From positions 1 through 56,941 of the forward strand of contig CAUJGS010000066.1 of the NCBI GenBank assembly GCA_963170185.1: 56,941 bases of DNA, given 5' to 3'. Source of the DNA: Bdellovibrionota bacterium (GTDB lineage Bacteria; Bdellovibrionota; Bdellovibrionia; Bdellovibrionales; JAMPXM01). Positions 7,835 to 50,872 of this stretch are shown one piece after another. Below the pieces are notes generated by a model that was not told the origin of the DNA, searched no databases, and worked only from the letters and a program-made list of their open reading frames with translations. Each line of letters starts with the position of its first letter. Positions within the stretch are counted from its first letter, which is position 1. The position numbers and the translations under genes are program-made.

Positions 7835-7962
7835 TCGGGTGCCCTCCGTGGATCCCAACATGAGAAGTATGACATGGCTTCTCGCCAGACGCGACCTCTC
7901 GACAGGTCCAGTCCAGGTCTAGGTTCGATAAGAATTTGGCGAATGATTTTATACCGAGAGAA

Positions 7963-8526: not shown

Positions 8527-9136
8527 TCGCACCTCCCACAGCCGTATCGACCGACAGATCTTGAAGATATCGATACGCGACCAGCGTACCTCTCATTTCG
8601 ATCATTGGCGCTTCTTCGATGTCCGTTCCGCCTACACCGGAGTTGACGACTTCGATCTCGTCAAATGTGAGAAGTTTTGGCACCGCCGAGAGTGACGAGA
8701 GGAATGTCACGAGCTGCTCAAACCGGCCGGTGATGGCGAACTCCAATCGAATGACCTCGTAGAAGTCTTTCTTCTCCACTTCGAGTTTCGGCTTCGTGGA
8801 ATTGACCTTAGCACCGGCCTCACTCGCCATGCGGCTCACCATTTGAGTGAGCTCGTTGGCATTCATGTCGGCCGGCATGTACTCTTTCACCTTTTCGAAC
8901 TGCTTTTCGTTGTTGCTGACTTCTTTTTCGAACTTCACGGTGTCGGCCATGGCCTGTTTCGTGTCCGCAAGATTCTTTTCTGCCTCAGAAAGCTGCGCCT
9001 GAAGACTGCGAATGGTCGTCTCGACGCCACTGCCATCGTCATAATACAGGAACCAATAGGCCGCCAAAGCCACCATACCAAAAACGACGACCTTGCTCCA
9101 AGTGAGTTCTCCGAGCTGAAGGATATATTTCTCCAT
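8513..9136 (-). CDS. pilO: Type IV pilus assembly protein PilO
   Basis: An inner-membrane protein of 207 aa that pairs with PilN in the pilus alignment complex. It has a short cytoplasmic start, one membrane segment (VVVFGMVALAAYWFLYY, about 17-33), a periplasmic coiled coil (about 40-90) and a ferredoxin-like domain (MVSRMASEAGAKVNSTKP to the end). The start codon overlaps the pilN stop (TGATG), a sign of translational coupling. Length and order match PilO in other pilMNOPQ operons. Confidence 0.94.
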   Translation of the reverse strand: MEKYILQLGELTWSKVVVFGMVALAAYWFLYYDDGSGVETTIRSLQAQLSEAEKNLADTKQAMADTVKFEKEVSNNEKQFEKVKEYMPADMNANELTQMVSRMASEAGAKVNSTKPKLEVEKKDFYEVIRLEFAITGRFEQLVTFLSSLSAVPKLLTFDEIEVVNSGVGGTDIEEAPMIEMRGTLVAYRYLQDLSVDTAVGGASGSP

Positions 9137-9753
9137 CAGAGTTCCTCCGCCTTGCCGATGCTCAATTCTATGCTGAATCGCTGGATCTGACCCAAAGTTG
9201 GATGAGTCTCAAGCGTTGTCGCTTTTGTTTCGGGCTGTTTGAAGTATCCGTTTGAATCGAATTCCTGAAGCAGGTTTCCGAAGTCCGTGGCTGACAGCGA
9301 ATACCCGTCAATCATGACCTTGCTATCGGAAATTTTGAGGCTGCTCATCCACGACTTGTCCGAAGACATGATCGTCTGAAGCTGATCAAGTGCTTTCACC
9401 TCGCGAAGACGATTGCGCGCGATCTCGCGGATGATCTTGATCTCTTTTTGCATCTTTTCTTTCAAACGGTTTGCCTTCTCAACTCGGGGCGCCGTCGAGC
9501 CAAATGATGCTTTTTCTGTTTCCACAGCAGAGACTCTTTGTTGCAACACAGTCTGCTCGTCTTTAAGAGCATTGAGACGAATTTTCTCCCATAAAAAGAG
9601 CATAATCGGAAAAAGCAGGACCACTGCGCCTTTGATGGCCGCCTGACGACGGACATCAACCGAGACAATCTCGCCTCCGGTGGACGCGGATGTTCCGATG
9701 TTGGTTCCAACACCGGCTACTCCCATTGTTCTCAGCAGGTTTATCCGAATCAT
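9136..9753 (-). CDS. pilN: Type IV pilus assembly protein PilN
   Basis: A 205-aa inner-membrane protein that starts MIRINLLR, the conserved PilN N-terminus that binds the groove of PilM. A membrane segment (about 36-55, GAVVLLFPIMLFLWEKI), a coiled coil (about 58-115) and a ferredoxin-like periplasmic domain follow. Overlaps pilM by 4 nt. An insert of Gly/Ser/Thr between the PilM-binding motif and the membrane segment (about 12-30) is longer than usual. Confidence 0.94.
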   Translation of the reverse strand: MIRINLLRTMGVAGVGTNIGTSASTGGEIVSVDVRRQAAIKGAVVLLFPIMLFLWEKIRLNALKDEQTVLQQRVSAVETEKASFGSTAPRVEKANRLKEKMQKEIKIIREIARNRLREVKALDQLQTIMSSDKSWMSSLKISDSKVMIDGYSLSATDFGNLLQEFDSNGYFKQPETKATTLETHPTLGQIQRFSIELSIGKAEEL

Positions 9754-10805
9754 ACTTCTTTCATATCCCGCATCGCGAGACCAATAGCCACCGGACTAAT
9801 CGATTGAATCTGCTGAATATAGTCCGACGTCAGAGCTTTTTCGTCGTAAGTCACTTGCTGGAAAGGGTTCAAAACCTCAAACGCAACGCCGATCGCAGAC
9901 GATATCTCTTCAACCAGCTTAGGAATAAAAATACTACCGCCCGTGACATATATCCGATTGACCCGGCCGCCACCGCCCGTCGCGATGAAGAATTCAAAGG
10001 CGTTTCGAATTTCATCGACAACTTGCTCAGTCGTGGAGGAAATCACGGAGTTCACCTCAGGCGGGACCTCTTGACCAACAGAGGCACTGATTTTCAGCGA
10101 TTCGGCTTCCGGAATGGAGACCCCCATCGCCTTGTGAAGCTCGTTGGTATAGGTCGAACCCCCAACCATCGAATCGCGACTAAAGATCACTTCGCCTTTT
10201 TCAACAATGACGAGATTCGTAACGCCCGCGCCGATATTGAGAATCGCAGTGAGGCCTTCAGGCTTTCCGTAATTGGCTTCAAAGCAATTCGCCAAGGCAA
10301 ATCCCGAGACATCCAAGATCGAACATTTCAAATTTGCTGACTCGACGGTCTCAATGAAGCGAAACACAAATTCCTGTTTGGCACCGACGAGGATGATATC
10401 GAGGTTGTCCGCGGGGTTTCGGTTCTCTTTGCCGATAATATGGTAGTCGATCGCGGCTTCCGAAATATCAAACGGGATATACTGCTCGGCCTCCCACTTG
10501 ATCGCCTCCGCAATGAGGTTTTCCTCGATAGGAGCCATCGAGATTCTTTTTACGATCACACCGTTGCCAAAGATTCCCGTCGAAACGTTTTTGCGTTTGC
10601 ACTTTACCGAAGAAACCAGAGTTTTTAGTGTCTCCGCCACACTCTGCGGTTCCAGGATCTCACCGTCCTTGACCCAACCTTGGTTGAGCGTCACGACGCC
10701 AAACTTTTTCAGCTCCCACCCTTTGCGGCCGCCATCCATCTCGGCCAGCTTGATACTGCTGGTGCCGATATCGACTGCTACAATTTTTTTCCCGCCAAAG
10801 AACAT
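9750..10805 (-). CDS. pilM: Type IV pilus actin-like ATPase PilM
   Basis: A cytoplasmic, actin-fold protein (351 aa) that binds PilN and connects the pilus motor to the alignment complex. The phosphate-1 motif VAVDIGTSSIKLAEM is at 9-23, ILNIGAGVTNLVIVEKG holds the second phosphate loop and YVTGGSIFIPKL the adenosine motif. The start at 10805 has AAGGTGG 4 nt upstream. It is the first gene after the promoter at 10840-10869 and overlaps pilN. Confidence 0.96.
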   Translation of the reverse strand: MFFGGKKIVAVDIGTSSIKLAEMDGGRKGWELKKFGVVTLNQGWVKDGEILEPQSVAETLKTLVSSVKCKRKNVSTGIFGNGVIVKRISMAPIEENLIAEAIKWEAEQYIPFDISEAAIDYHIIGKENRNPADNLDIILVGAKQEFVFRFIETVESANLKCSILDVSGFALANCFEANYGKPEGLTAILNIGAGVTNLVIVEKGEVIFSRDSMVGGSTYTNELHKAMGVSIPEAESLKISASVGQEVPPEVNSVISSTTEQVVDEIRNAFEFFIATGGGGRVNRIYVTGGSIFIPKLVEEISSAIGVAFEVLNPFQQVTYDEKALTSDYIQQIQSISPVAIGLAMRDMKEV

Positions 10806-31900: not shown

Positions 31901-32611
31901 ATGAAGACTCTGTGGTTTGTTCATCGCGACGGGTCCGTGCTCGGCCCTTTCTCATCAGACGAGGTCGAGACGAATATTTCTAACGGTTCATTCGGACCAG
32001 ATTGCCTCGTTTGGGCTCGTGGCACAAACGAATGGTCACCTATTTCTCAGTGGAAAAACCTCGCACAGAAACTCACCGCTAGCCAAAAAGCCGCCGACAA
32101 TCGTGTCTGGTACTGCGACTCGGGCTCCGGCCATCCAGCCGGTCCATTGACGCAAAATGAATTGGCCGATCACCTGCGCGGCCTAAATCGTTGGGACATC
32201 GTGACCATCTGGGGAACCGGACTTCTTAAATGGCTTCCACTTTTTGAAGTTCCCGAAGTGATGGATCTCGTCGGCATCAGCCGCCGAGAAAATCCGCGCG
32301 CTCCGCTACTTGGTCAAGTCGCACTGACAACCGTCGGCAGCCAAACACCCGCTCAGGTGCTCCCAGCTTTGACAATTAGCATCGGTGGGTTCGGTGTAAA
32401 AAACGGAGGCGGTTTCAATCGCGGCGACAAAGTTCAAATCGCGATCAAGAGCCGTGAGATCGCCGGAACTATTCACGCCCTAGGAGAAGTGCTCTACGTA
32501 TCCCGCATGGGCGACGCAGGCGTACGGTTCATCGACATTTCTTCGGAAGACAAGGCTCTCATCATAGAGCACGTAAAACGCTTCCACGCCGGCGGCTCGA
32601 TCGCCGCCTAA
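31901..32611 (+). CDS. GYF-GYF-PilZ domain protein
   Basis: 236 aa, soluble. Two GYF_2-type repeats are seen at about 3-50 (WFVHRDGSVLGPF, then VWARGTNEWSP) and 67-115 (WYCDSGSGHPAGPLTQNE, then WGTGLLKWLPL). A PilZ domain follows from about 126: RRENPR gives the RxxxR motif, TISIGG replaces the usual [DN]xSxxG, and VRFIDIS ends the barrel. PilZ domains often bind cyclic di-GMP. The gene is opposite and convergent to the ExbD-like genes of the gliding-type cluster, so a signalling link is plausible. Start ATG 31901 without Shine-Dalgarno. Confidence 0.8.
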   Translation: MKTLWFVHRDGSVLGPFSSDEVETNISNGSFGPDCLVWARGTNEWSPISQWKNLAQKLTASQKAADNRVWYCDSGSGHPAGPLTQNELADHLRGLNRWDIVTIWGTGLLKWLPLFEVPEVMDLVGISRRENPRAPLLGQVALTTVGSQTPAQVLPALTISIGGFGVKNGGGFNRGDKVQIAIKSREIAGTIHALGEVLYVSRMGDAGVRFIDISSEDKALIIEHVKRFHAGGSIAA

Positions 32612-32617
32612 AAAAAC

Positions 32618-33202
32618 TTACTGCGTTGTGCGCTCGTCGCGAAGAACCGCGAAGTTGATCTCGGAAGCTCCCGCTTCCGTCAGCGTGTACATGACCTTCT
32701 TAACCGTACCGGCGTCAATGACCTTGTCGGCCTGGACCGTCACACGGCGGAAGTCCTCAGGGTTCGCCGGCTCTTGTCCACGCCCCTGCGCCACGGCTGT
32801 TCGAATTTGCGAAAGTCCGGCGACACGGTTTTTCTCCTCGAGAACTCGAAAGGCATCCTGCACTCGAGCCTGAAGACTTGGAACAACCGTCACTTCTTCA
32901 AATTGCCGAACCTCTTCCAGAGTGGCGACCTGTACTTTGTCGACCATGACTTTGCCTTTGGAAATCACAACGACCGTCGCCGGCTTTAACTCGCGCACTT
33001 TCGCCGCTTTCGGAAGCACGACCTCATCCGAGAGCTCGATCACATCGCCCGTCGTCTGATAGTTCTGCAAAAGGAACACGGCAAGAACCGTGAACATGTC
33101 GACCATCGCGGTAAGACTGAGCATCGCCACGATCTTGCGACCACCCTTGCCGGAGAGTGGTCGGTTATGTCTGTTGCGACGGCCGGGAACGTAGATTGCC
33201 AT
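32618..33202 (-). CDS. ExbD/TolR-type motor protein (AglS/AglQ-like), second copy
   Basis: 194 aa with a cytoplasmic basic start (GRRNRHNRPLSGKGGRK), one membrane helix bearing the proton-channel Asp (MVDMFTVLAVFLLQN, about 32-46) and a periplasmic domain (VVLPKAAKV through the C-terminus). Ion-driven ExbB-ExbD complexes of this kind power TonB, Tol and the Agl gliding motor. Last gene of the cluster, 15 nt after the other ExbD-type gene; longer than usual because of a helical insert (about 105-145). Confidence 0.88.
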   Translation of the reverse strand: MAIYVPGRRNRHNRPLSGKGGRKIVAMLSLTAMVDMFTVLAVFLLQNYQTTGDVIELSDEVVLPKAAKVRELKPATVVVISKGKVMVDKVQVATLEEVRQFEEVTVVPSLQARVQDAFRVLEEKNRVAGLSQIRTAVAQGRGQEPANPEDFRRVTVQADKVIDAGTVKKVMYTLTEAGASEINFAVLRDERTTQ

Positions 33203-33217
33203 AACGCCTCTTAACGC

Positions 33218-33688
33218 CTATTCCGATTCGACGGTCGCGATGCTGATCGAGATAAAATTCTCCGCCAGCAGCGCGTCCATTCCGAGAATCAACTTTTCAT
33301 AGGGCACTTCGTTGTCGACGGTGATCGTCGCATCCGACTTATCCGGATACATCTGACGAACAACTGCCAATCGCTCGGCTAACTCAGCCGTCGACCACTC
33401 GCCACTTTTCTTTTCAAACGTGTACTTGTCCTGGCCGACGACCAAACGGAATCCAAAATCCTTCACATCCAATCGCAGGGGGATATCGGCGATTGGCGGC
33501 GGAGGTGTAATCTGATCGGACGTCTTTTTACCGTAGATAGAGCTTCCGAGCTGGATCATCGAAACCTGAGTCCAAACCGCCGTGATCAGAAGAAACGTGA
33601 TAAGAACGCTCATCAAATCGATGAACGGAATCAGGTTAACTTCGACATTGGCGCTTCGACCGCCGCTATTATCTTCGGTTTGTGCCAT
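33218..33688 (-). CDS. ExbD/TolR-type motor protein (AglQ/AglS-like), first copy
   Basis: 156 aa. NLIPFIDLMSVLITFLLIT (about 18-36) is the membrane helix with the key Asp. The periplasmic part has the ExbD strand-helix pattern (LRLDVKDFGFRLVVGQDKYTF, LAVVRQMYPDKSDATITVD). It lies 10 nt after the ExbB-type gene. Two different ExbD-type proteins with one ExbB-type protein match the composition of the M. xanthus AglR-AglQ-AglS motor. Confidence 0.9.
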   Translation of the reverse strand: MAQTEDNSGGRSANVEVNLIPFIDLMSVLITFLLITAVWTQVSMIQLGSSIYGKKTSDQITPPPPIADIPLRLDVKDFGFRLVVGQDKYTFEKKSGEWSTAELAERLAVVRQMYPDKSDATITVDNEVPYEKLILGMDALLAENFISISIATVESE

Positions 33689-33698
33689 ATCTCACTTC

Positions 33699-34385
33699 TT
33701 ATTCTTTAACTTTATCGCGGTTTGCTACGACCAAGTTCATCATCGACATGCTCGACTCTTGCATATCGTTGATGATGCGACCGATGCGAACTTGGAAATA
33801 TCCGTAAGCCAAGATCGCGATGACCGCAACCATCAGACCCGCTGCCGTACAGTGAAGGGCTTCCGAGATACCTTCCGAGAGAAGCTGCGCTTTCTCTGCG
33901 GCTCCCGCCTGCGAAACACCGGCGAACGATTTGATCATACCCAGGATGGTTCCGACGAGACCAACAAGAGTCGCCAAGTTACCAAAGACCGCCAGGAATG
34001 CTGCCCAGCCTTCGATGCGCGGAGTTTCACGAAGCACAGCCGCGTCCATCGCGACTTGAATCTCTTCATCAGGACGCTGGTTCATCACCTGAATCAGGCC
34101 GGCCTTCAGAGTGTTCGTCAACGGAGCCGACTTTGAATCGCAGTACGTAATCGCTTGGCGAATATCGCCGCGCAAAACCATACCAAAAAGGTGTTCGTTG
34201 AAATCATTCTTGTCGACTGTGAGGCCTTTCAACGCCCACAAGCGTTCGATCAAGAGCATGATTGTCAAAGCTCCGATCGCCGCGATGACAATCATCGCCG
34301 GTCCACCAACCTTGAAGGCGGTGATAAAGAAGTTTCCTGATTCGTAAGCCGTTGCCATATTGGCGGCTGCTGCTGTCGGTTCCAC
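33699..34385 (-). CDS. ExbB/TolQ-type motor protein (AglR-like)
   Basis: 228 aa with three membrane segments: about 27-50 (VGGPAMIVIAAIGALTIML), 128-155 (WAAFLAVFGNLATLVGLVGT) and 170-200 (ALHCTAAGLMVAVIAILAYG). The conserved GLVGTILGMIKSF and the polar TxxGL stretch identify the MotA/TolQ/ExbB family. It would form the ion channel with the two ExbD-type proteins that follow, and sits directly downstream of the FHA/TonB-like gene. Confidence 0.92.
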   Translation of the reverse strand: MEPTAAAANMATAYESGNFFITAFKVGGPAMIVIAAIGALTIMLLIERLWALKGLTVDKNDFNEHLFGMVLRGDIRQAITYCDSKSAPLTNTLKAGLIQVMNQRPDEEIQVAMDAAVLRETPRIEGWAAFLAVFGNLATLVGLVGTILGMIKSFAGVSQAGAAEKAQLLSEGISEALHCTAAGLMVAVIAILAYGYFQVRIGRIINDMQESSMSMMNLVVANRDKVKE

Positions 34386-34422
34386 TGTTTCCCCCTGTAA
34401 CTAAACGACCCTATCTCATTAA

Positions 34423-36609
34423 TTAATTCGAGAAGACAAACGGATACGCGACGGTGACGATCTCATTCGTCGGCGGCTCCGGAAATCTCCACATCTTCAA
34501 TCGCGCCATCAAACATTCAGCAACCGCACGATTGCCGAGTTCGTTCTTCTGCACAGCCGTGCGAAGAACAGCCCCTTTTTCACCGATATCCCATTCGATC
34601 ACGAGCTTACCAACGAGATCAGGTGTTCGATTCAATTCACGCTCGTAACACGCCTTGATCACTCGTGTGTTTGCCAAGATCACGCGACGAATAGCCTCGC
34701 GATCGATGGTGCCGGAGAACGCTTCACCTTCTCCACCGGGGACGACTTTCACACCTGTGCGACCGCCGAGACCGCCGGTTCCATAGCCCGTGTTTCCACC
34801 GCCACGCCCTTCGGTTCTGATTCCGCCCGCGATGCCATCGAGAGCTTTTCCGGTTCCACCTTGCCCGGTATCTTTCACCCGCGAGCCCAAACCTTCACCC
34901 GGACGATCTTCGTTGAATCCACTTCGGCCGGTCGCCGTTGCCGACATACCCGCAAGTTCACCGGATCCCGTGGTTTGTCCCGAAACCGAGTTCTGCGCAC
35001 CGCCACCACCGAACGTCGAAAAGATGCCGGCTTTCGAAACGTCTTTCGACTTCGACTGCATCTGCGAAGCCTTTTGATCTGTCGTCTTAATCGCCCCACC
35101 CTGCTTGACGGATGTCTGCTGACGGGGCCCCGTCTTATTGCGGTTCGGAACAGGGTTGGCCGCAGTTCCAGGATCCTTCTTCGCGGTCAAACTCTGTGCC
35201 TGAGCCTGCTTTTGTTTCACTTCTTGCTTCACCGGCGACGGCGTCGAACGCACGATTTGCGGTGGCGGAGTGGCAGCCGGAGTTGGCGCTGGTTCCGTCA
35301 CACGAACCGGCTCTGGTGGAGGCGGCGGCGGAATCGGCGTCGGTTTAACAACGATCACCGCCGTACGAAGCGGCTCATCAAGGCCTGCCTCCGGTGGCAA
35401 CTCTTTCGTCGGCGAATAGAGATACATATAAAGACTGAGCAGCGCGACCAACGCCATCGAGAGGATAATGCCGGTCACTTCGCTCGTCGTGAGATCAAAC
35501 ATCGGCGCCATCAAAGGCTTGGGCGCTTCACTGACATAACGGACGATGATCGAAATTCCTTCGCCCACATCCATCTTAACCAGCTCACCTTGTTCTAGAA
35601 CAAGTGTGGCTAGCTCACTTTCACGACCAATTCGTCCGGTACGACTTAACTCCGCAAAAGGCTGTGAGCTCTGACCGCGGACCAACTCGCCTGTCGACTC
35701 CGGCAAGATATAAACTGTCGCCGGTTGATCGATTTTCACGATCGGCGCCGAGCGAAGGCGCGAACCCATAACAGGAACCGGCACGTCACACGAAGCCTTG
35801 CTTCCGATCGTAATGATCTTCTTTTCCGAAAATGAATAGGTCGCGATCACACGCTCGCGCCATGCCACCATGACCTCAACAACCGAGCCCTTGGTGGGTT
35901 TCACAAACTCTTTTACGTTTTGATAGCGGCTCGGCGGCGCGAAAGTTTTGCGATGGCGTTTTTTGTGGCTCGAAGCCGGTCGAACCGAGGGCCGAATCGG
36001 ACGAGCCGCGACTGTTTCAAGCGCTCCGCCACCGGCGATGATATCAACGGTCGGACGCTCCACCGGACGCGAAAAATCACTCACTTTCCCTGTCGTGGGC
36101 GGAGTGTCTTGTTTTGGTGGCGGCACAGTGATCGGATTCGGCGGAGTCATGAGGTCGATCGTCGGCACAACCGGAGCTGCGGGCTTCGGTGCCTCTGGTT
36201 TTACAGCTTCAATCGGTGGTGGCGCTTGAGGCGGCGTGATCGGTGGTGGCGTCACCTGAGGTGGCGGCGCAACTTCCGGAGGCGCTATTTTGGGTTTCGG
36301 AATTCCGATGTAGAATTCGATCTTGTAATCACCGATTTCGATCGTGTCACCGGACAGAATGGCGCTATCGAGTACGACCTCACCGTTCTTTTTTGTTCCA
36401 CTCTGCGAGCCGAGATCTGCGATATACCAAGCTTCGTCGCGACTTTCGAGCGTACAGTGAATAATCGCGACAGCGTCACCCTCTAAAGGCAGCTGCAAAT
36501 CCGCCTGGCGACCGATGACGATCTGACTTTCCGTGAACTGTTTAACGCCGACGAGCGATCCGTTTTTGTGAATGCGTAGAACTACTGGCTGTTTCACGTT
36601 CGAACTCAT
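34423..36609 (-). CDS. FHA and AgmX/TonB-type transmembrane protein of the gliding-like cluster (GltG/GltJ-like)
   Basis: 728 aa. An N-terminal FHA domain (about 20-100: VIGRQADLQLP, IADLGSQSGTKKNG) faces the cytoplasm. Then come a Pro-rich linker (100-215), a second degenerate FHA-like part (about 240-355: ITIGSKASCDVPVPV), one membrane helix (about 378-398) and a Pro-rich then Gly-rich periplasmic stretch. The C-terminal AgmX/PglI TonB-like domain ends the protein (about 635-728: IKACYERELNRTPDLVGKLVIEW). In M. xanthus GltG and GltJ have this plan and connect the Agl motor to the periplasmic Glt proteins. The start overlaps the neighbour's stop by 4 nt. Confidence 0.85.
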   Translation of the reverse strand: MSSNVKQPVVLRIHKNGSLVGVKQFTESQIVIGRQADLQLPLEGDAVAIIHCTLESRDEAWYIADLGSQSGTKKNGEVVLDSAILSGDTIEIGDYKIEFYIGIPKPKIAPPEVAPPPQVTPPPITPPQAPPPIEAVKPEAPKPAAPVVPTIDLMTPPNPITVPPPKQDTPPTTGKVSDFSRPVERPTVDIIAGGGALETVAARPIRPSVRPASSHKKRHRKTFAPPSRYQNVKEFVKPTKGSVVEVMVAWRERVIATYSFSEKKIITIGSKASCDVPVPVMGSRLRSAPIVKIDQPATVYILPESTGELVRGQSSQPFAELSRTGRIGRESELATLVLEQGELVKMDVGEGISIIVRYVSEAPKPLMAPMFDLTTSEVTGIILSMALVALLSLYMYLYSPTKELPPEAGLDEPLRTAVIVVKPTPIPPPPPPEPVRVTEPAPTPAATPPPQIVRSTPSPVKQEVKQKQAQAQSLTAKKDPGTAANPVPNRNKTGPRQQTSVKQGGAIKTTDQKASQMQSKSKDVSKAGIFSTFGGGGAQNSVSGQTTGSGELAGMSATATGRSGFNEDRPGEGLGSRVKDTGQGGTGKALDGIAGGIRTEGRGGGNTGYGTGGLGGRTGVKVVPGGEGEAFSGTIDREAIRRVILANTRVIKACYERELNRTPDLVGKLVIEWDIGEKGAVLRTAVQKNELGNRAVAECLMARLKMWRFPEPPTNEIVTVAYPFVFSN

Positions 36610-36956
36610 TTCGCAGGCTCCGCACTTCCGCGCACATTGGACTCGGCACGCCCGACGTCCTCGGCCGTTTTTCGCATTTCAGGAAGAAAGTTTTCACGAA
36701 GTTTAAAAAGGCGACGCGAGTTGTTCATTCGGTTTTGCAACAGGACAAAAAGCTCAGGCTTTTGCGTGCGCCCTTCGATCAATTGGTCTTCGAAGTTGAT
36801 CGTGGTTCGTTTCGAACCTTTCTTCTGCGCGCCCGCTGCACCCTCTTGCGCATGAGCCGTCGTCACTCCAAGCATCAACATCGCCGCAGCCAGCGTCATC
36901 GACACGGCCGCAACGCTTTGAGTTTTTTTTGCACATCTCGAGATGAAATCAAACAC
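36606..36956 (-). CDS. Small exported protein in the gliding-like cluster
   Basis: 116 aa. A signal peptide (VAAVSMTLAAAMLMLGVTTAHA, cut near 36) is followed by about 80 mostly helical residues rich in Arg, Lys and Glu (FVLLQNRMNNSRRLFKLRENF). No family is recognised. The start is GTG at 36956. It overlaps the FHA/TonB-like gene by 4 nt and follows the TPR lipoprotein by 17 nt, so it is very probably a periplasmic component of the same machine. Confidence 0.75.
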   Translation of the reverse strand: MFDFISRCAKKTQSVAAVSMTLAAAMLMLGVTTAHAQEGAAGAQKKGSKRTTINFEDQLIEGRTQKPELFVLLQNRMNNSRRLFKLRENFLPEMRKTAEDVGRAESNVRGSAEPAK

Positions 36957-36973
36957 GATGCTCGCCCCAATTA

Positions 36974-37825
36974 TTAAGGTGTCGACGTACCGGTCGCCTT
37001 CCGCTCAAGAGCGGTCGCGCGATTCAAAACGTCCTTCCTTTCAGTCTCAAGGAACTTTACGCGGTAAACAAGCGGCAGCCCTTCCTTAGGCCTGCCGAGA
37101 GTTTCAATCAGCAGAGCCGCGTAGTTCAAAAGAAGGATCGGATCTTTATTGTTACGTTTCGAAGCTTCATCAAAAATCTGTCGCGCTTTTTCATGTTCAC
37201 CTTCGCCCTTCAGCGAAAGTGCGTAGTTGTTCGCGATCGGCGTGTCCTGCCGACCCGCTCTCCAAGCGCGTTCCAAGCGAGGCAGCGCCTTTTTCCAATC
37301 GCCACCTTTTGCGTAGTGCGAGCCGAGGTTGGCGTTGGCTTCAGCATGACCTTCGTCGAGACGCAAAGCACGTTTGAACTGCTCAGCCGCAGCCAGCTCG
37401 TCCCCTTCGGAAAGCAACATGAGACCAAAATTATTGAGAATAGTCGCGTTCGGCTGCCCCTTTTCAATCGCCCTGGAAAGCAAGAGCTTCGCGGCGCCCA
37501 CTTTTTTCTGACGATAGTTCCACATAGCCAACGCGTTTAAGGCCACCACATCGTCCGGATTGGCGACAAGAATACGCGCCGCTTCGTCTTGCACGTTCAA
37601 TGTCTTACTTCCGCGCAACGCCTCGGACAGTTTTGCATAACGCTCGGACTTTGGATTCACCGGTCCGCCACTGACCTCAGCACCACCGCTGCTGGGATCG
37701 GTCGGAAGCGGAACCGTCGAGCCCGATTTCGGACCCGCGCCTGTCACAACAGGCTCAGATTTTTGCGAAGATCCGCACGCGTTTAAGAGAAGCGCACAGC
37801 CCGTGACCAACAAGAGTTTCTTCAT
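36974..37825 (-). CDS. TPR lipoprotein of the gliding-like cluster (GltE/AglT-like)
   Basis: About 283 aa from ATG 37825, which overlaps the preceding stop by 4 nt. The lipobox LLNACG near 17 marks a lipoprotein. The mature part has several TPR units (ALAMWNYRQKKVGAAKLLLSRAIE, ILNNFGLMLLSEGDELAAAEQFKRAL, NANLGSHYAKGGDWKKALPRLE). In M. xanthus AglT/GltE is a periplasmic TPR protein of the gliding complex. Equivalence here is by domain and neighbourhood. Confidence 0.8.
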   Translation of the reverse strand: MKKLLLVTGCALLLNACGSSQKSEPVVTGAGPKSGSTVPLPTDPSSGGAEVSGGPVNPKSERYAKLSEALRGSKTLNVQDEAARILVANPDDVVALNALAMWNYRQKKVGAAKLLLSRAIEKGQPNATILNNFGLMLLSEGDELAAAEQFKRALRLDEGHAEANANLGSHYAKGGDWKKALPRLERAWRAGRQDTPIANNYALSLKGEGEHEKARQIFDEASKRNNKDPILLLNYAALLIETLGRPKEGLPLVYRVKFLETERKDVLNRATALERKATGTSTP

Positions 37826-40800
37826 AGTCCCATCCAATCACCCGCATTGGCATCGACGGCGAGATCTCCGACATCGGAATATTTCGGATCATAAACCGAA
37901 AGCCCGATACGAGCAGCTTTGGTCCACGGTCCATAGGTTTCAAACTCCAAGGAACGATCTACCGCCGCCTGATAAGATGTTTTCGCTTCGTTTCTAAACT
38001 TCGAAGCTTCCACCTTGATCAACTCGCGGTACTTGTTGGCGTCTTCACCAGAAAGACCGGCGGGAGTCGGGATCTTTTCAAACTTGTCTGCTACAAGATC
38101 GTACACCTGGCCCGTGCTAGCGAGCGCCGCCACGATCATCGGCCCGTAGTCGAGTCGAATGATTTCCTTCATCGCCTCCAGATACTTTTTAATACCGGCC
38201 TGAACCTGTGCGGCCGCAGCTCCTTGCGACTTGTCCGTTGTACCAAAGCGAATGCCAGCCATGTCGTTTCGAATCGGCTGTGCGATTTCAAATCGCGCCT
38301 CAGCCAAGAAACGGACCGTCGCTTCTCGCGCCAATGGTGAGCCGTTTTTATGCATGCTTAAGACCGAGCTATATCCCTTCATCGATTTCGTAAACTGTCC
38401 GCTCTTACGAGCGTAGTCGGCGATTCGGAAGGTCGCTTCAATGCGCTTGGCTTCGTCACGTCCGCCGTTATCCAGATAGAGCTGGTAAAACTGGACGGCT
38501 CGTTTTTCCAGATTACGACGACGCCACATCTCGGCTTCTAGCCAAAATGTATCGACGCGATCCGCACGTTTCGAATACTTCCGGTAAAGCTCGTAGTTCG
38601 AACTTGCCTCACCAGTATTTCCGAGGCCATCCCAGATCACGGCGGCGTTAAAGAATCCGTTAATCGCCTTTTGGTCCTTGGCATTTGCATCTGCGTAAGC
38701 CGCAAACTGCTTGGCCGCCAGATCCAACTGACCTGTTTGTTGATAAATTTTAGCAAGCGCATTTCGCGCATCATTGTGAAGCGTCTTCGTGCGTGCGTCA
38801 GTTCCCGGAGTCGCAAGAACCAGCTGATAGTTTTTCGCCGCTCCCGCTAGTTCTCCCGCCTTCTCGTAACTCGCCGCCGCCTTAAAACGCGCCGCCAATG
38901 CGAGTTCAGCATTTTTCGTGATGCCGATGAAGTTCTCAAACTCCTTGGCGGCCTTCACGTGATCGCCTCCCGTCGCAAACTTTTCGGCTTTCGCGTAGTT
39001 CGCCTTCTCCATAAGAAGCCGTACTTGAGCACCGAACTTCGTTCGCATGATGGCGGGATTGGCCATAAATTGAGCGCCCTTATCGGCGAACCCAACCATG
39101 TCGTCTTTCAACTTATAAATATCGAGAATCAAGTTCCCCGCGATTTCCGCGTTCGCCGAACCAGGGTTGCCGTACAAAGTCTTTTCGAAAATGGGAACCG
39201 CTTCGTCAAAGTAGTTGTAGCTGTAGTAAATCACACCGAGACGACGTTCGATATCGCTGACCTTCTCGCCTTTTGGATAAGCCGAGATATAACGTGTCGC
39301 CGCCTTAACAAACTGCTCCACCGGCGGGTCCAACGGAATCTTCTCAAGCGACTTGCCGCGCTTGGCTTCGATCTCTTGATCCGATGGCAACGTCTTCTCG
39401 AACGCTAAAACCGCGTTCAACAAAGCTCGTTCGCGATATTGGCTTTTTGCGTCTTTATCCGCGGAATAGAGATACAGACGTGCCGCATCGTTGTAGCGCG
39501 CCATATCGAACAACAGTTCGGCATGGAAGAACTGCATCTCGGCAATCTGAGGGGAATCCGAGAAGTGCTTCACATAGAGATTGTAGGCGCCATGCGCTGT
39601 TTCCTGAGAGAATCGAGCGCGAGAGTTTTGCGCCGTTTGGTGCAACTGAAGAACGTGGTTACGAAGTGTCGTCTCTTGCAAACGAGCGACATCTTCCACC
39701 AACTTCTGATTCTTTTTGTTCTCTTGCGCCCAGAGCGATGCCGGTCCGAAATTTTCAAGCCAGAGCTCAAGCTGCTTTCTAAACTCGCGTGGGTCATGCG
39801 TCGCGTACGTGAGAACGATCTGATACTGGTACTCAGCCGCACGTTCGCCTGTGACGTTGAAACTGATCAACTGACGGAAGATTTTCGCGGCGACAATACG
39901 GTTCCCTTGATCAGCCGTCAAATAAGCGAGCTTTTCCAACATCTGAAGTGCCGCGCGCTCATCACCCGAAACACGCAAGAAGTCATCATACGCGCCGTCG
40001 AAGTTGCCGACTTCGGCATAAAACGGAACGTAGTCTTTTAGGGCCTCAATCGCCAAACGAATGCGATTGACCGAACGACGACCCGGAACATTCGACGCGG
40101 CCTCCGAGGCTTTGCTCATACGAATGACACGTTCCAAATACTTCAGGGCATCTGTCGTACGATTTAGACGATACAAACACCACGCCGCTTTATAGTAAGC
40201 AAACGAAGCCAATCGCGCGCGCCGTGCCTGAATAACCTTCTGATAATTGTCGAAAGCCTGACGCCAGCCTTCGTTTTCGAAGTAAAACTCACCCAACGCG
40301 AAGTGAGATTCGGTCACATAGACACTTTCAGGATATCGACTAACTAGCTGCCGATAAAACTCTTCACCTTGTTTGGTATTTCCAAGTTCAAAGTGATTGT
40401 ATCCGAGAAAGAACAACGCCTGGTCAATTTTTGGATCATTCGGAAAGTCGCGTACAAACCAATCGTAAAGCTGAATCGCCTTTTTGTTGTAATCACGCGT
40501 GACAGTCAGATCTAGCCGAGGTTTTACCCGAGTCTTTTTCTCGACAAAGGCTTTTACCTTTCTGTCATATTCTGACTGTTCACGAAACTCCACGAGACGC
40601 GCCTTTTCGACATAACGCTCGGCAAGCCGCAACCAGATTTCGCCTCTCTGAGGACTACGACGAGCCTTCTGCGAGGCCGCGAAAAGCGCACGAATCTCTC
40701 GATCCAGCAGCTTTTCGTATTCAGCTTCCTTGGTTCCGGTGTCATAAAAGGAGTTCGAACGAGGCGGTTTCACCGCTCCCATACTGCGAGGCGCTTGCGG

Positions 40801-41121
40801 TTTCGGGCTTTGCAGCGCTCGCGATTGCGGCAGCGCCGATCTCTTTAAACTGCCGCCGATCGAGCCACGTGAGGAGGCCGCTTGTTGGCTAGGAGCCGGA
40901 GCCGCCTTTTTTGCAGGCTTCGCACGTTTGCGCCGGTTCTGACTCGTGTTAGCTGGCGCGCGACTACCGACAGCCCCCGAATCAATCGCCGGCACCGAGT
41001 CACGATTTACAGTATCAAAGCCCGCGTCCGTAGAAGCGACGGCTTGATTGAGTACGCTTGCCACCGATACCGAGGCCAAGCCTGAAACGAAGACATTGAG
41101 CCAAACTTTCGAATTCATCAT
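37822..41121 (-). CDS. Large periplasmic TPR protein of the gliding-like cluster (GltD/AgmU-like)
   Basis: About 1099 aa. It has a signal peptide (WLNVFVSGLASVSVASVLNQAVA), a basic Ala/Pro/Ser linker (about 50-125), then TPR-like repeats almost to the end, e.g. AIQLYDWFVRDFPNDPKIDQALFFLGY and FYRQLVSRYPESVYVTESHFALGEFYF. Domain plan and size resemble AgmU/GltD of M. xanthus (a periplasmic scaffold of over 1200 aa). The start ATG 41121 overlaps the upstream stop (ATGA). Confidence 0.8.
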   Translation of the reverse strand: MMNSKVWLNVFVSGLASVSVASVLNQAVASTDAGFDTVNRDSVPAIDSGAVGSRAPANTSQNRRKRAKPAKKAAPAPSQQAASSRGSIGGSLKRSALPQSRALQSPKPQAPRSMGAVKPPRSNSFYDTGTKEAEYEKLLDREIRALFAASQKARRSPQRGEIWLRLAERYVEKARLVEFREQSEYDRKVKAFVEKKTRVKPRLDLTVTRDYNKKAIQLYDWFVRDFPNDPKIDQALFFLGYNHFELGNTKQGEEFYRQLVSRYPESVYVTESHFALGEFYFENEGWRQAFDNYQKVIQARRARLASFAYYKAAWCLYRLNRTTDALKYLERVIRMSKASEAASNVPGRRSVNRIRLAIEALKDYVPFYAEVGNFDGAYDDFLRVSGDERAALQMLEKLAYLTADQGNRIVAAKIFRQLISFNVTGERAAEYQYQIVLTYATHDPREFRKQLELWLENFGPASLWAQENKKNQKLVEDVARLQETTLRNHVLQLHQTAQNSRARFSQETAHGAYNLYVKHFSDSPQIAEMQFFHAELLFDMARYNDAARLYLYSADKDAKSQYRERALLNAVLAFEKTLPSDQEIEAKRGKSLEKIPLDPPVEQFVKAATRYISAYPKGEKVSDIERRLGVIYYSYNYFDEAVPIFEKTLYGNPGSANAEIAGNLILDIYKLKDDMVGFADKGAQFMANPAIMRTKFGAQVRLLMEKANYAKAEKFATGGDHVKAAKEFENFIGITKNAELALAARFKAAASYEKAGELAGAAKNYQLVLATPGTDARTKTLHNDARNALAKIYQQTGQLDLAAKQFAAYADANAKDQKAINGFFNAAVIWDGLGNTGEASSNYELYRKYSKRADRVDTFWLEAEMWRRRNLEKRAVQFYQLYLDNGGRDEAKRIEATFRIADYARKSGQFTKSMKGYSSVLSMHKNGSPLAREATVRFLAEARFEIAQPIRNDMAGIRFGTTDKSQGAAAAQVQAGIKKYLEAMKEIIRLDYGPMIVAALASTGQVYDLVADKFEKIPTPAGLSGEDANKYRELIKVEASKFRNEAKTSYQAAVDRSLEFETYGPWTKAARIGLSVYDPKYSDVGDLAVDANAGDWMGL

Positions 41122-43064
41122 TCGCACGCCTTTACGCCCAGGTAGTGATAGTTCCCGATTTCATCGAGCCAGTACTCGCCTTTAAAGGGCCAGAAATCGT
41201 AGCCGTTTTGAATGTAGAAGCTGCGATCTTGTTTCTCGTCGACTGAGTCACGAACAAGTCCCTTGCCCGCGATCTCTTTTTTCACGGCTTCTTTTTTACC
41301 GGACAACATGTCCAGACGGATGAGGCTCGCTTGTTCAAAATGACCTGCGAGCTCGACTTGGATCTTCTCCAAATGTCGACGGATCAAACGGCCTGTCGCC
41401 GTTTGCGTCGCAACCAAACGACGCTCGACAACACGTCGTGCGTAGCGACCGACACGAGACTCCCTCCAAGGAGCCGGCGCTTGCTCGATACGCTTTTTCT
41501 CAGCCTCGAGGTTTCGGATGTAGGATAAGTTACGCCGAACATCGCCCTCTCGGAGAACCTGACGAGCCACCAAGAAAGGAACCTGAATCTGCATCGTCGA
41601 ACGACGTTTGGCATTGGTCGCTTTTTTGATCTCTTCGTACTGTTCGTCGATCTTTCGCACTTCGCGATACAACGAAACCGCCGAACTCGGCGAAGTCGAC
41701 ATCAGCGTTGCCCGCAGTTCTTTTTGCACCGGCCCGTAAACCTTTTCAAAAAGACGAAGTGTCGTTTCCATCTCGTCGTATCGACAGATGTAGTGATAAA
41801 CGATGGCGCGAAGCAAAAGCGATTCCGGCTGGTAGAAATCGTCATAAAACGGCGAGTGCAACGAGTGGAAGTTTGACAGTGCCGATCGGAATCTTCCGTC
41901 CTGCAAAAGCGCCCACGTCGATTCAAACAAAGCGTCGTGCCACTGCTCGGTATCGCGAGGAATTTCGCGGTAGGCATCGATCGCCTCTGCAAAAAGTTTT
42001 CTTTGATACAGCGTTCGCGCCTTACCCATCATGGCGTTGACCCGAACCTTATTGGTCACTCCGGCATCCGAGTTCACTTCGGCCAGCGCGCCAAACACAT
42101 TTTCCGCACGCTCCAACTGCCCAGCTTCCACCATGCTCAACGCGATCTGATAGCGCGCGCGATTGTAGAAGATCGAAGTGCTGCGGACACGGTTGAATTC
42201 CTTCACGGCTTCCGCGAAATCTCCGTCACGATAACGTACCTCACCACGGCGGAAAAACAGCATATCGCGGTTGGACGCCGGGAAATCCTCTTCATTGATC
42301 TGTTTAACGGCGTAGTTCAAGAGGATGTCGCTCTCAAGCGCGTCAGCCGCAACCGTCAAGCGTTCAAGTGCTTGCCGAACGTATTTGTTCTTCGGATTGC
42401 TCTTACCTTCCGAACGAATGATTTCGTAATATGGGAAGGCCGCCACCTGGTGAAGCTTCAACTCTTGAAGCGTGCGACCAAGAATAAAGCGAATTTGCAG
42501 AAGTCGAATCGGGTTTTTCTCGCGTTCAAGAAGACCGAAAAATATCTTCGAAGCTTCGAAATAGTCACCGCGTCGCACGGCTTGACGCCCACGATCCTCT
42601 TCTCGCTTGATCAATGTGGCCCGTGGGTCCTGCACACGACGTGGCGCCGCCGTTCGGCTTCGCGTCGCCGAGTTCTGCTGCGCGCGAGGAGCCTGCGTAC
42701 GAGTCGTGGTGGTTTTCTTGGTCGTCGAACGTTTCGCTTTTCGTGTCGTGTTGCCAGCTTGCGCCACGATCTCTACCAATTCGTCATCGAGCTCGTCAGG
42801 CGACGCCATCGCTTCGCCGGCATCCGTGTATTCCATTGGAAGGCGCACAAGTTCATCGATCTCATTTAAGATCGAGAGATTGCGCTCGATCTGCTCTGAG
42901 TCCTGCCCCTCCGGCTGAAGAAGCCCCGCCGCTTGCGGCGACAACACCGGAATCGCAGCCTGAACAACGTTCGAAGAAGAGACCGCTCCGATGAACGACC
43001 CGGCAACGGTGGCCGTGGCAATCGCGAAAACACAAGCCGGATGCTTAAGTATAAGGTGTTTCAT
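41118..43064 (-). CDS. Periplasmic TPR protein of the gliding-like cluster (GltC-like)
   Basis: 648 aa with a signal peptide (VFAIATATVAGSFIGAVSSS), a basic linker rich in Thr/Arg/Lys (about 112-150) and TPR-like repeats (DYFEASKIFFGLLEREKNPIR, GEVRYRDGDFAEAVKEFNRV, LFAEAIDAYREIPRD). The last third (about 440-648) has a coiled coil and a Trp/Tyr-rich end that lacks TPR character. Overlaps both neighbours by 4 nt. Size resembles GltC of M. xanthus (about 670 aa); similarity at sequence level cannot be judged here. Confidence 0.78.
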   Translation of the reverse strand: MKHLILKHPACVFAIATATVAGSFIGAVSSSNVVQAAIPVLSPQAAGLLQPEGQDSEQIERNLSILNEIDELVRLPMEYTDAGEAMASPDELDDELVEIVAQAGNTTRKAKRSTTKKTTTTRTQAPRAQQNSATRSRTAAPRRVQDPRATLIKREEDRGRQAVRRGDYFEASKIFFGLLEREKNPIRLLQIRFILGRTLQELKLHQVAAFPYYEIIRSEGKSNPKNKYVRQALERLTVAADALESDILLNYAVKQINEEDFPASNRDMLFFRRGEVRYRDGDFAEAVKEFNRVRSTSIFYNRARYQIALSMVEAGQLERAENVFGALAEVNSDAGVTNKVRVNAMMGKARTLYQRKLFAEAIDAYREIPRDTEQWHDALFESTWALLQDGRFRSALSNFHSLHSPFYDDFYQPESLLLRAIVYHYICRYDEMETTLRLFEKVYGPVQKELRATLMSTSPSSAVSLYREVRKIDEQYEEIKKATNAKRRSTMQIQVPFLVARQVLREGDVRRNLSYIRNLEAEKKRIEQAPAPWRESRVGRYARRVVERRLVATQTATGRLIRRHLEKIQVELAGHFEQASLIRLDMLSGKKEAVKKEIAGKGLVRDSVDEKQDRSFYIQNGYDFWPFKGEYWLDEIGNYHYLGVKACE

Positions 43065-43960
43065 CGGTAAGTCGCCTCCGGGAAGAAGAAGCTAGCGCCA
43101 AGCGTGAGGAACAAGTTGTTGTAGAGCGAGTTCGCTCCTGCTCCCGCTACACCGGAGCGTGCGTTATAGAAGTTCCAAGAGAAGTCCCAGCGAAAGGCCG
43201 CCGATTTGGTGATGGCGAAGATCTGCCCCGTGCCTAAGTGGATCGTCGGCTCGGATCCGCCTTGATTGGTATTGGTCATGCCCGCGCCAGCGGAAAAGTA
43301 GAGATCAAAGGTCGTGATTTTTTTATTGAGAAAACCCATCTTTCCGTAAACAGGCGTCCATCGGAAGTCGACCCCATAGTAGTTCTGCGGAGAAACGAAG
43401 TTCGTCGTCTTCACGCCGCGACGTTCACGAAGGTTTTTCGTCACATCACGCTCGCCCGTCGCAAGCACCATCACCATAAGTTCGATGCCCAGACGCTCGG
43501 TGAACGAATAGCCCAACCGGCCATTGACTCCGATACTTGAAAAAAACTTGTCGTTAAGAATCCCGTTTAAACCGCCGAACGCTTCAAAACGCTGAGTCTT
43601 AGGCAGATAGCGCTTTTGAATAACTGCGATGTCCTTGAACTCAGAAAGCGAAGAGAGGTCGGACACGCCTTTGATCTCAGTTTCATTCTTGGGTGCCGTC
43701 AGCGCCTTTTGTTTGCCGTCGTCGATGACTTCCGTCGATCGACGTCCCGGATCTTCTGCGTACAACTGTTCGATGGCATCCATTTCCCCAGGCACCGAGG
43801 ACATCACATCTTCAGACTGAACATCCTGAAGTGTCGCCTGGGCATAGGCACCACTTTGAAAAAGAAAGCTTGTCAGTAGAACCATCGAGCCGATCAACAG
43901 ACCAGATCCTCGGTCGGAAACTCCGTAGCGATTACTCGCGGTTTTGTTTGAAACTCTCAT
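43061..43960 (-). CDS. Outer-membrane beta-barrel protein of the gliding-like cluster (GltB/GltA-like)
   Basis: 299 aa. After a signal peptide (MVLLTSFLFQSGAYA) comes a soluble stretch (about 45-115), then amphipathic strands typical of an 8-stranded barrel (GRLGYSFTERLGIELMVMVL, DLYFSAGAGMTNTN, AAFRWDFSWNFYN). The chain ends in an aromatic-rich FLTLGASFFFPEATYR. In M. xanthus GltA and GltB are outer-membrane barrels of the same complex. It lies 57 nt after the other barrel gene. Confidence 0.82.
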   Translation of the reverse strand: MRVSNKTASNRYGVSDRGSGLLIGSMVLLTSFLFQSGAYAQATLQDVQSEDVMSSVPGEMDAIEQLYAEDPGRRSTEVIDDGKQKALTAPKNETEIKGVSDLSSLSEFKDIAVIQKRYLPKTQRFEAFGGLNGILNDKFFSSIGVNGRLGYSFTERLGIELMVMVLATGERDVTKNLRERRGVKTTNFVSPQNYYGVDFRWTPVYGKMGFLNKKITTFDLYFSAGAGMTNTNQGGSEPTIHLGTGQIFAITKSAAFRWDFSWNFYNARSGVAGAGANSLYNNLFLTLGASFFFPEATYR

Positions 43961-44017
43961 CTCGTCTGCCTTTCAAGCTGCCTATTCAAACCTATTCCTG
44001 CGCACCTGACTCACGAA

Positions 44018-44758
44018 TCAGAGCGCCGGAAGCGTGTAGCTGATCCCTACGTTCAAAAGTCCTTCAAGCATAAATCTGTCATCAAAGGCGCTGGTCGGCT
44101 GCGGTCCCGTCTTGTTGTCCAAGCGAATGGACGTCGGGTCCGGCCCCATGTAGGCCAACGCGCGAAGATCAAACCGTAAAGAGAACGAAGGCGAAAAGTG
44201 GAACTTCTGCCCAAGGCCCGCCGAAACAACAGGTTTCGACGCATCTCCAACGCCATACATGCCGGCACCCAAAAGACCATAGAGGTGAAGGTTCATGACG
44301 TAGTCTTTGGTGAACGAAAGTTTTCCGTAGTAGGCGGAGTACTGCCAGCTTGCGATCAAGAGATATTTCGGAATAGGGCCGTATTGAAGATTGGCATTCA
44401 CCGGTGGACTCGTCCCCGGAATCGGATTCAACTGCGCCGCTTCGCTAGAAAGCCCGGTGAGAAATGTCGAACCAAAAATATTGATCCCGTGGTCTTCATT
44501 GATGTGATAGCTGAGCGTCCCGCCAAACTGCAACGGATTGTAAAACGGCTCCGTGAGCGCATACCCCATGAGAACACCCAGCTCAAAGCGACGGCTGAGT
44601 TCGACGACTCGGTTACGCACGACTGTCGGCTGATCAAAAACCGGCAAGACTGATTCAGTCGCAAGTTCTTCAGTCGGAAATTGGATCGTTTCGGATTGAG
44701 CCAAATCTGGCTGAAACAATCCGAGGAGGAAAATTCCACCCACCAAAAGACGACGCAT
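44018..44758 (-). CDS. Outer-membrane beta-barrel protein, first gene of the gliding-like cluster (GltA/GltB-like)
   Basis: About 246 aa from ATG 44758 (GGGAG 5 nt upstream). Signal peptide MRRLLVGGIFLLGLFQPDLAQS is followed by barrel strands (RRFELGVLMGYALTEPFYN, GTLSYHINEDHGINIFGSTF, FSLRFDLRALAYMG) and an end strand LLNVGISYTLPAL. A paralogue of the next gene by fold. The 143-bp gap upstream to kdsD carries no clear sigma-70 promoter that I can point to, so the cluster's promoter remains undefined. Confidence 0.82.
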   Translation of the reverse strand: MRRLLVGGIFLLGLFQPDLAQSETIQFPTEELATESVLPVFDQPTVVRNRVVELSRRFELGVLMGYALTEPFYNPLQFGGTLSYHINEDHGINIFGSTFLTGLSSEAAQLNPIPGTSPPVNANLQYGPIPKYLLIASWQYSAYYGKLSFTKDYVMNLHLYGLLGAGMYGVGDASKPVVSAGLGQKFHFSPSFSLRFDLRALAYMGPDPTSIRLDNKTGPQPTSAFDDRFMLEGLLNVGISYTLPAL

Positions 44759-44901
44759 GAGGACTCCCACCTTCCCGAGAAGCTGTCACAGGACCTACGA
44801 GAACAGTGTGGACCGAGGTTAACTCATTGAAAAGAAAGAGAAGCCCGGCGACTATCCCAACGTCGAGAAATCGCCAGACATATTCGGTTTGTATAACGTA
44901 A

Positions 44902-49489: not shown

Positions 49490-50872
49490 ATGTCGACCAC
49501 CACACACCAGATCCCTGTCCTGCCTGATTCCGAGCACAATCCAAAAGCTGCCGGCACACAAAAGCCAGCTTTCTTGATCTCTCTCACTCGAACGGGAGTC
49601 CGCCAAGTTTCCCCCGTCTCCACGATGATGGTCATCGGCTCAGACACTGGGGCCGGTCTTCGTCTTCAAGACCCAACCGTGAACCCTCGCCACGCCCGCT
49701 TGGAACTTCGCGGGCAACAATGGATGATTCGCGATCTGCAATCGTCACAAGGAATTTGGGTCAACGACACACGCATTTCCGAGGCCCCGCTTCAAGACCT
49801 CGATCGCATTCGCATCGGCGAAGTGGTTTTGCAATTCCGCCTAGGTCTTGACGACGAACAGGGCCTCACTTCAAAAAATGAAGCTTGGAATCGTCAGCTC
49901 GGCCGCCTTCCCTCGTTCGCCCACACCGACTTTCCGGTTTTGATGCTCGGCCCTTCCGGTGCCGGTAAAGAAATCCTCGCACGCGCCATTCACCGTATGT
50001 CGCGACGAAAAGACGGTCCCTTTGTTTCCATCAACTGCGGAGCACTTTCCGAAAGCCTCATCGAAAGCGAACTCTTCGGGCATCTCAAAGGTTCGTTCAC
50101 CGGCGCCTCGCACGACCGCAAGGGGGCGTTTGAAGCCGCACGTGGTGGCACCCTGGTTTTGGACGAAGTCGGCGACCTTCCTTTGGCTCTGCAAGCAAAA
50201 CTCCTACGTGCGCTTGAGAACAAAGAAATTCGTCCCGTCGGAAGCGACCGAACCATCGAGACCGATGTACGCATTCTCGCCTCAACTCACAAAGATCTCG
50301 CCTTGCTCGTGTCCCAAGGGCGTTTTCGCGAGGATCTCTACTGGCGATTGAATGTTTGCAAGATCCAACCGCCCGCCCTCCGCGACCGCATGGAGGACTT
50401 CGTCGATCTCGTTTATGTTTTCTGCAAAGAGATGCGCGTGCGCTTAAGCTTCAACGCTATCGAGCAGCTTAAGACCCACACGTGGCCCGGCAATATCCGT
50501 GAGCTCCGAAACGTGATCGCACGGGCAGCAGCTTACTTTCCAGGCCATTACATCCAACCCGAGGATCTCGAGGTGATTCTCGACATTCACCAGCTTCCAA
50601 CACGCGCCACGAGCCTGCAGGGAACAAGCGAAGCTCTACAAACCGCGCTCGAAAGAAACGGCATCAATAAAAATATTCCGTCGAGTGCCTTGAATGTCGG
50701 CGGCAGTGTGATGCGAGAAATCGAGCGCGAAATGATTATCCGACGTTTGGTTGCAAACCAAGGCAATCAACGAAAAACCGCGCTGGATCTGGGTATGCCA
50801 AAAAGCACTCTTCATGATCGCCTCAAGGCTTACTCGATTGATCTAGAGGAAATCAAAGGCGCGGCGGTCTAA
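49490..50872 (+). CDS. FHA-domain sigma-54-dependent transcriptional activator
   Basis: 460 aa. An N-terminal FHA domain (about 28-118: VIGSDTGAGLRLQD, ARLELRG, SSQGIWVND) takes the place of a receiver, suggesting control by Ser/Thr phosphorylation. The AAA+ domain (about 138-365) has Walker A GPSGAGKE (154-161), the loop GSFTGA (201-206) and Walker B TLVLDEVGDLP. A Fis-type HTH ends the protein (about 415-452: RKTALDLGMPKSTLHDRLKAY). GSFTGA differs from GAFTGA by Ala to Ser. The start has AAAGGA about 7 nt upstream. Divergent from engB; target genes are not evident. Confidence 0.93.
   Translation: MSTTTHQIPVLPDSEHNPKAAGTQKPAFLISLTRTGVRQVSPVSTMMVIGSDTGAGLRLQDPTVNPRHARLELRGQQWMIRDLQSSQGIWVNDTRISEAPLQDLDRIRIGEVVLQFRLGLDDEQGLTSKNEAWNRQLGRLPSFAHTDFPVLMLGPSGAGKEILARAIHRMSRRKDGPFVSINCGALSESLIESELFGHLKGSFTGASHDRKGAFEAARGGTLVLDEVGDLPLALQAKLLRALENKEIRPVGSDRTIETDVRILASTHKDLALLVSQGRFREDLYWRLNVCKIQPPALRDRMEDFVDLVYVFCKEMRVRLSFNAIEQLKTHTWPGNIRELRNVIARAAAYFPGHYIQPEDLEVILDIHQLPTRATSLQGTSEALQTALERNGINKNIPSSALNVGGSVMREIEREMIIRRLVANQGNQRKTALDLGMPKSTLHDRLKAYSIDLEEIKGAAV

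Follow-up and report, generated by a model that had tools for sequence, protein, structure and literature searches.

The window, a stretch of 56,941 nucleotides from a genome of the order Bdellovibrionales, contains ten adjacent minus-strand genes at 32618-44758 that encode an AglRQS-type motor and homologues of GltA to GltG. On sequence evidence, the block is the Bdellovibrionales orthologue of the known cluster Bd0828-Bd0838 of Bdellovibrio bacteriovorus HD100. Its novelty is low in itself. The products very probably form a trans-envelope complex that applies proton-driven force to gliding and firm prey attachment. Two features are less known than the block itself: a neighboring gene for a possible second-messenger sensor, and the repeated fusion, in relatives, of two scaffold genes of the block.

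Gene content and setting of the block

An earlier note on this DNA had listed a pair of outer-membrane barrels, three TPR proteins, one small exported protein, an FHA/TonB-like transmembrane protein, and an ExbB-ExbD-ExbD motor. All ten open reading frames were found at the place, strand, and order given there, and domain searches returned the same protein makeup. Pfam models detected MotA/ExbB, two ExbD, FHA, and TPR repeats among the block proteins. The description of most genes as overlapping or nearly touching also held. Measured from gltA to aglS with the most likely starts, the distances are 57, -4, -4, -4, 17, -4, 37, 10, and 15 bases, with four 4-base overlaps and remaining gaps of 10 to 57 bases. 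The likely starts of gltE (37825) and gltD (41121) were revised, and both lie in ATGA overlaps.

The first two genes encode outer-membrane barrels, which are named GltA and GltB as gene-order labels and not as proven assignments. gltA (44018-44758, with an alternative GTG start at 44770) also encodes a signal peptide. It matches TIGR04565 (OMP_myx_plus) at 2.7e-24, over the cut-off. gltB (43061-43960) matches the same model at 6.9e-34, also over the cut-off. The AlphaFold2 model of GltB has 8 barrel strands, and Foldseek matched it to OmpW, OmpA, and OprG.

The next four genes encode the three TPR proteins and the small exported protein. gltC (41118-43064) encodes an exported TPR protein that matches NF033756 (gliding_GltC) at 9.5e-50, under the equivalog cut-off. 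gltD (37822-41121, with an alternative GTG start at 41127) encodes a large exported TPR scaffold with TPR/YbgF repeats. gltE (36974-37825) encodes a TPR lipoprotein with the lipobox LLNAC and matches NF033758 (gliding_GltE) at 5.8e-16. The gene at 36606-36956 encodes a small exported protein that matches NF033764 (CglF) at 8.7e-10. CglF and GltF are one protein (PMC4488436), so the small exported protein of the block is GltF.

gltG (34423-36609) encodes, in order, an FHA domain, a proline-rich cytoplasmic linker, one transmembrane segment (residues ~378-396), a proline-rich periplasmic linker, and an AgmX/PglI C-terminal domain. It matches NF033760 (gliding_GltG) at 1.5e-67, NF033768 (AgmX/PglI C-terminal domain) at 2.9e-29, and PF00498 (FHA) at 2e-10. 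The profile searches thus agree with the proposed equivalence to the M. xanthus Glt parts for GltC, GltE, GltG, CglF/GltF, and the OMP_myx_plus barrels. The NCBIfam matches of GltC, GltE, GltG, and GltF are all under the strict M. xanthus equivalog cut-offs, which is expected since the host belongs to another phylum.

The last three genes encode the motor. aglR (33699-34385) encodes an ExbB/TolQ-type channel subunit (PF01618, 4.7e-29). aglQ (33218-33688; PF02472, 2.9e-15) and aglS (32618-33202; PF02472, 9.5e-10) encode ExbD/TolR-type subunits. Each has a transmembrane aspartate, which is kept in all aligned orthologues of both.

The block lies within a Kdo/LPS-transport locus that is largely conserved through the order (26960-49288: engB-kdsB-pyrG-kdsD, glt/agl, and lptCA-lptB-rpoN-rny). 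In most genomes, it stands between kdsB-pyrG-kdsD(-kdsC) and lptCA-lptB-rpoN; HD100 has the downstream half of this setting. In most of the approximately 20 genomes with the block, one flank also has kdsD, pyrG, kdsB, engB, and a sigma-54 activator with an FHA domain. In the window, this FHA-domain activator is at 49490-50872, next to engB, and rpoN is on the other side of the block. The activator is conserved in most relatives. About 22 kb from the gliding block, the window also encodes a secretin with an AMIN domain and, separated from it by three small genes, a PilM protein (5576-10805). This group is apparently a type IV pilus assembly operon.

Orthology, motor phylogeny, and comparison with M. 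xanthus

GltC-family proteins were present in 133 of the 144 genomes sampled across the phylum. The gene-order comparison proposed in the earlier note recovered the ten genes, identically arranged, from about 20 genomes of Bdellovibrionales. Since the same genes recur in the same order in these genomes, the block is not a chance arrangement. One of them is the HD100-like genome G073, which we take to be B. bacteriovorus HD100. Its Agl sets at 0.40, 0.78, 1.40, and 2.28 Mb fit Bd0412-0420, Bd0828-0838, Bd1473-1483, and Bd2368-2377, and the set in the window is the counterpart of the one at 0.78 Mb (Bd0828-0838). Both have the same genes in the same order with lptCA-lptB-rpoN beyond aglS, and the AglR proteins are 58% identical. 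However, HD100 has neither a GYF-PilZ gene here nor kdsD directly upstream of gltA. G073 also contains a second gltB-gltC-gltF-gltA group (L048, 3.49 Mb). This group is close kin of the main set and has no motor genes.

The motor was placed in an ML tree of 42 ExbB-family proteins. AglR of the window falls inside a 35-row Agl clade, apart from E. coli TolQ and ExbB and apart from the TolQ-like proteins of this genome (ownC25) and HD100 (HD0.17). Support for the clade is 100/99; this value covers the whole clade, not the branching of the window AglR against myxococcal AglR, and the clade has a long branch at its base that drew a warning from the tool. The window AglR is 40-43% identical to the best myxococcal stand-alone AglR copies. 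Further Agl/Glt sets of this genome are on contigs C40, C51, C134, C108, and C100. Apart from the window set, the Agl sets of this genome belong to other subclades, and among them the motor of C134 lies closest to the AglR group.

The block resembles the M. xanthus A-motility machine (AglRQS-GltA-K) in its AglRQS-type motor, its barrels, the relative order of GltC to GltG as in Myxococcota, and the presence of MglA. It differs in that the genes form three clusters in M. xanthus and one here. Profiles built from orthologues of the order retrieved gltC-D-E-F-G in the same order from several myxococcal genomes, with aglRQS standing separately. In Myxococcota, the GltD profile hit the gene flanked by gltC and gltE, at 1e-56 to 1e-193; the identity of GltD rests on this cross-phylum profile and on position. 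GltF homologues were found between gltE and gltG in Myxococcota at ~1e-8 to 1e-15.

Of the GltG/J-type link that the earlier note had proposed, the GltG part is clear (1.5e-67), but profile search found no full-length GltJ over the cut-off in 15 genomes. What the GltJ profile did match in these genomes was the C-terminal domain that GltJ has in common with GltG, GYF domains on their own, and some weakly scoring partial stretches. The adhesin CglB had no match in this genome or HD100, and the same model also found nothing over the cut-off in two myxococcal genomes, which limits what its negative result can say. The term "complete" for the machine is therefore unsupported. With neither full-length GltJ nor CglB found, the adhesin and cytoplasmic hub may differ from those of M. 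xanthus. HD100 has been reported without GltH, GltI, and GltK (PMC3169522). A 167-aa gene adjoining gltA in several relatives was considered as a GltK candidate (GltK has 170 aa in M. xanthus) and rejected; by eye, its sequence reads as a KdsC-type phosphatase.

This genome encodes MglA (L135), which is 61% identical to M. xanthus MglA. It has Ser at position 21, as does Bdellovibrio MglA. The Ras Pfam model retrieved only other GTPases from this genome and did not pick up MglA. At the mglA locus (G000:C25:2594-5681, L139), no mglB-like gene was seen beside mglA, and a 451-aa GYF_2 protein is encoded two genes downstream.

In seven relatives (L052, L053, L054, L056, L057, L058, and L083), gltD and gltE are fused. 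The fused gltD encodes 1255-1299 aa, there is no separate gltE, and the GltE profile covers the C-terminal part with 202 to 313 bits. No signal peptide was seen at the junction. Mapped onto a phylogeny built from four concatenated Glt proteins, the fusion trait changed at least four times, so fusion, or fusion and splitting, recurred. The fusion supports the inference that GltD and GltE act as one periplasmic unit. Lipidation of GltE may be dispensable in the fused relatives.

Function of the machine

The block is best read as a force-generating machine across the envelope that serves surface gliding, prey attachment, or both. By analogy with the genetics of M. xanthus and B. bacteriovorus, GltG would be driven by protons that pass through AglR and the transmembrane aspartates of AglQ and AglS. 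It would hand force across the periplasm by way of GltC, GltD, GltE, and GltF to the two barrels. With an adhesin outside the identified set, the barrels would move or assemble adhesion complexes at the cell surface. The GYF-GYF-PilZ neighbor, as we propose, may tune the machine in response to a cyclic dinucleotide. An AglR-GltG interaction and a role in gliding are reported for M. xanthus (PMC3169522).

The earlier note was right that Bdellovibrio clusters of this kind are known (Bd0828-Bd0838). The Bdellovibrio cluster has been studied more closely than its remark on a little-understood role suggests (PMC3169522, PMC6561027). Luciano et al. in 2011 named Bd0828-0838 the best candidate gliding machine, nearest to M. 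xanthus aglRQS by phylogeny and with many glt homologues (PMC3169522). Duncan et al. in 2019 reported that an insertion in the aglS gene Bd0838 gave no attachment, killing, or rounding (PMC6561027). This phenotype is what an attachment and invasion machine would give, and the block may serve these alone, with gliding left to a paralogous set of, for example, the Bd1473-Bd1483 type. We give this a real chance, though well short of an even one. The aglQ gene of that other set, bd1480, is induced on surfaces and lowered in bd0367 mutants (PMC9140294), and insertions in Bd1481 and Bd1483 impair biofilm predation (PMC2277423). This genome also contains several Agl sets, and the motor of C40, C51, C134, or C108 could be the gliding one. 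Against attachment only, Bd0828-0838 is the set nearest to M. xanthus aglRQS with its many glt homologues, and the window set scores well with gliding profiles. Since other Agl sets may glide (PMC9140294, PMC2277423), the main use of the block may be either gliding or prey attachment.

Two further readings would take the block away from adhesion. The conserved embedding between kdsB-pyrG-kdsD(-kdsC) and lptCA-lptB-rpoN would be explained if the block powered envelope or LPS-related transport, and a related complex acts in M. xanthus sporulation (PMC3169522). We regard this as improbable. It draws on gene neighborhood, which may be just an old insertion, whereas the aglS phenotype is in prey attachment and none of the Pfam domains found among the ten proteins is one for LPS export. 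An ordinary Tol-Pal or TonB energizer with unrelated neighbors is more improbable still, to the point of being negligible. The PF01618 and PF02472 domains would fit it, and the best NCBIfam motor model for AglR is TolQ, although at 82.7 bits against a cut-off of 221. The ML tree, however, groups the motor with Agl and away from Tol/TonB, in agreement with the AglRQS type given in the earlier note, and separate TolQ-like proteins are present in this genome and HD100. A trans-envelope machine for gliding and prey attachment is the reading we keep.

The GYF-GYF-PilZ gene beside aglS

A plus-strand gene at 31901-32611 is convergent with aglS and ends 6 bp from the aglS end. It encodes two GYF_2 domains and a PilZ domain (PF14237, 1.6e-16; PF07238, 4.1e-8). 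The AlphaFold2 model contains two GYF domains and one PilZ domain, with a pLDDT of 88 and a pTM of 0.48. In Foldseek, the model matched, among others, c-di-GMP-bound Alg44, MotI, YcgR, and the GYF domain of M. xanthus GltJ (7z3c). The only solved chain that matches by sequence is this GltJ/AgmX GYF domain (7z3c, 9e-7), and the GltJ GYF domain is also the nearest solved structure to the first GYF domain. All nine sequences compared have the arginines of the PilZ RxxxR motif. In most of them, the second PilZ motif is kept as xxSxxG, without its leading D/N.

Eight other genomes of the order have an orthologue of the gene next to aglS or close by. In the Bd0828-0838 set of HD100, aglS has no such neighbor. 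A second GYF/PilZ-type gene is upstream of aglR in a different kind of Agl set, represented by set C40, a G100 set, and HD100 set Bd1473-1483. Genes of this second type are at L067:11336-12184, L049:19127-19747, and L147:7281-8249. In HD100, that set contains the PilZ gene Bd1482, which Hobley et al. in 2012 had already suggested as a c-di-GMP receptor for gliding (PMC3271064). That set and the one in the window both have an Agl motor that adjoins a GYF/PilZ gene. They differ in that the Bd1473-Bd1483 set belongs to another Agl subclade, and its GYF/PilZ gene is upstream of aglR on the same strand, whereas the gene in the window is convergent and beside aglS. This genome contains five GYF_2-domain genes, and two of them adjoin Agl motors. 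Chance placement of two of the five is unlikely, at ~1e-4 by a rough estimate with ~10 motor-flanking places and ~3,300 genes. The PP count of the GltG cytoplasmic part was compared with the presence of GYF-PilZ. It was 0-13 with the gene and 0-5 without it, in few genomes and with strong overlap, and is not counted as evidence.

We propose the protein as a candidate cyclic-dinucleotide adaptor that may tune the machine. YcgR and MotI/YpfA are PilZ proteins that act on the flagellar stator. The window protein shares the PilZ fold with them, and AglR lies within the MotA/TolQ family. It differs in that GYF domains replace the partner domain. More doubtfully, it may stand in functionally, as a detached protein, for the part of GltJ that lies in the cytoplasm. 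In that reading, the GYF domains would dock on the motor or on the proline-rich linker that GltG has in the cytoplasm. The PilZ domain, once it has bound c-di-GMP or cGAMP, would engage or release the Agl stator in the way that YcgR and MotI act on MotA. A literature search on the GYF domain together with PilZ found no paper.

As of 2026, Bdellovibrio gliding was still described as having an unidentified motor and force path (PMC13104615). The locus presents the proposed machine in compact form, as a single block, in a further family of the order. It puts the name GltF on the small protein, and the natural GltD-GltE fusions of its relatives would be useful for biochemistry. It also points to GYF-PilZ as a signal adaptor that can be tested, beside a machine with apparently no GltJ. 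If the protein is a stand-in for GltJ, it would be the missing effector that links a second messenger to gliding or prey attachment, common to two different Agl sets.
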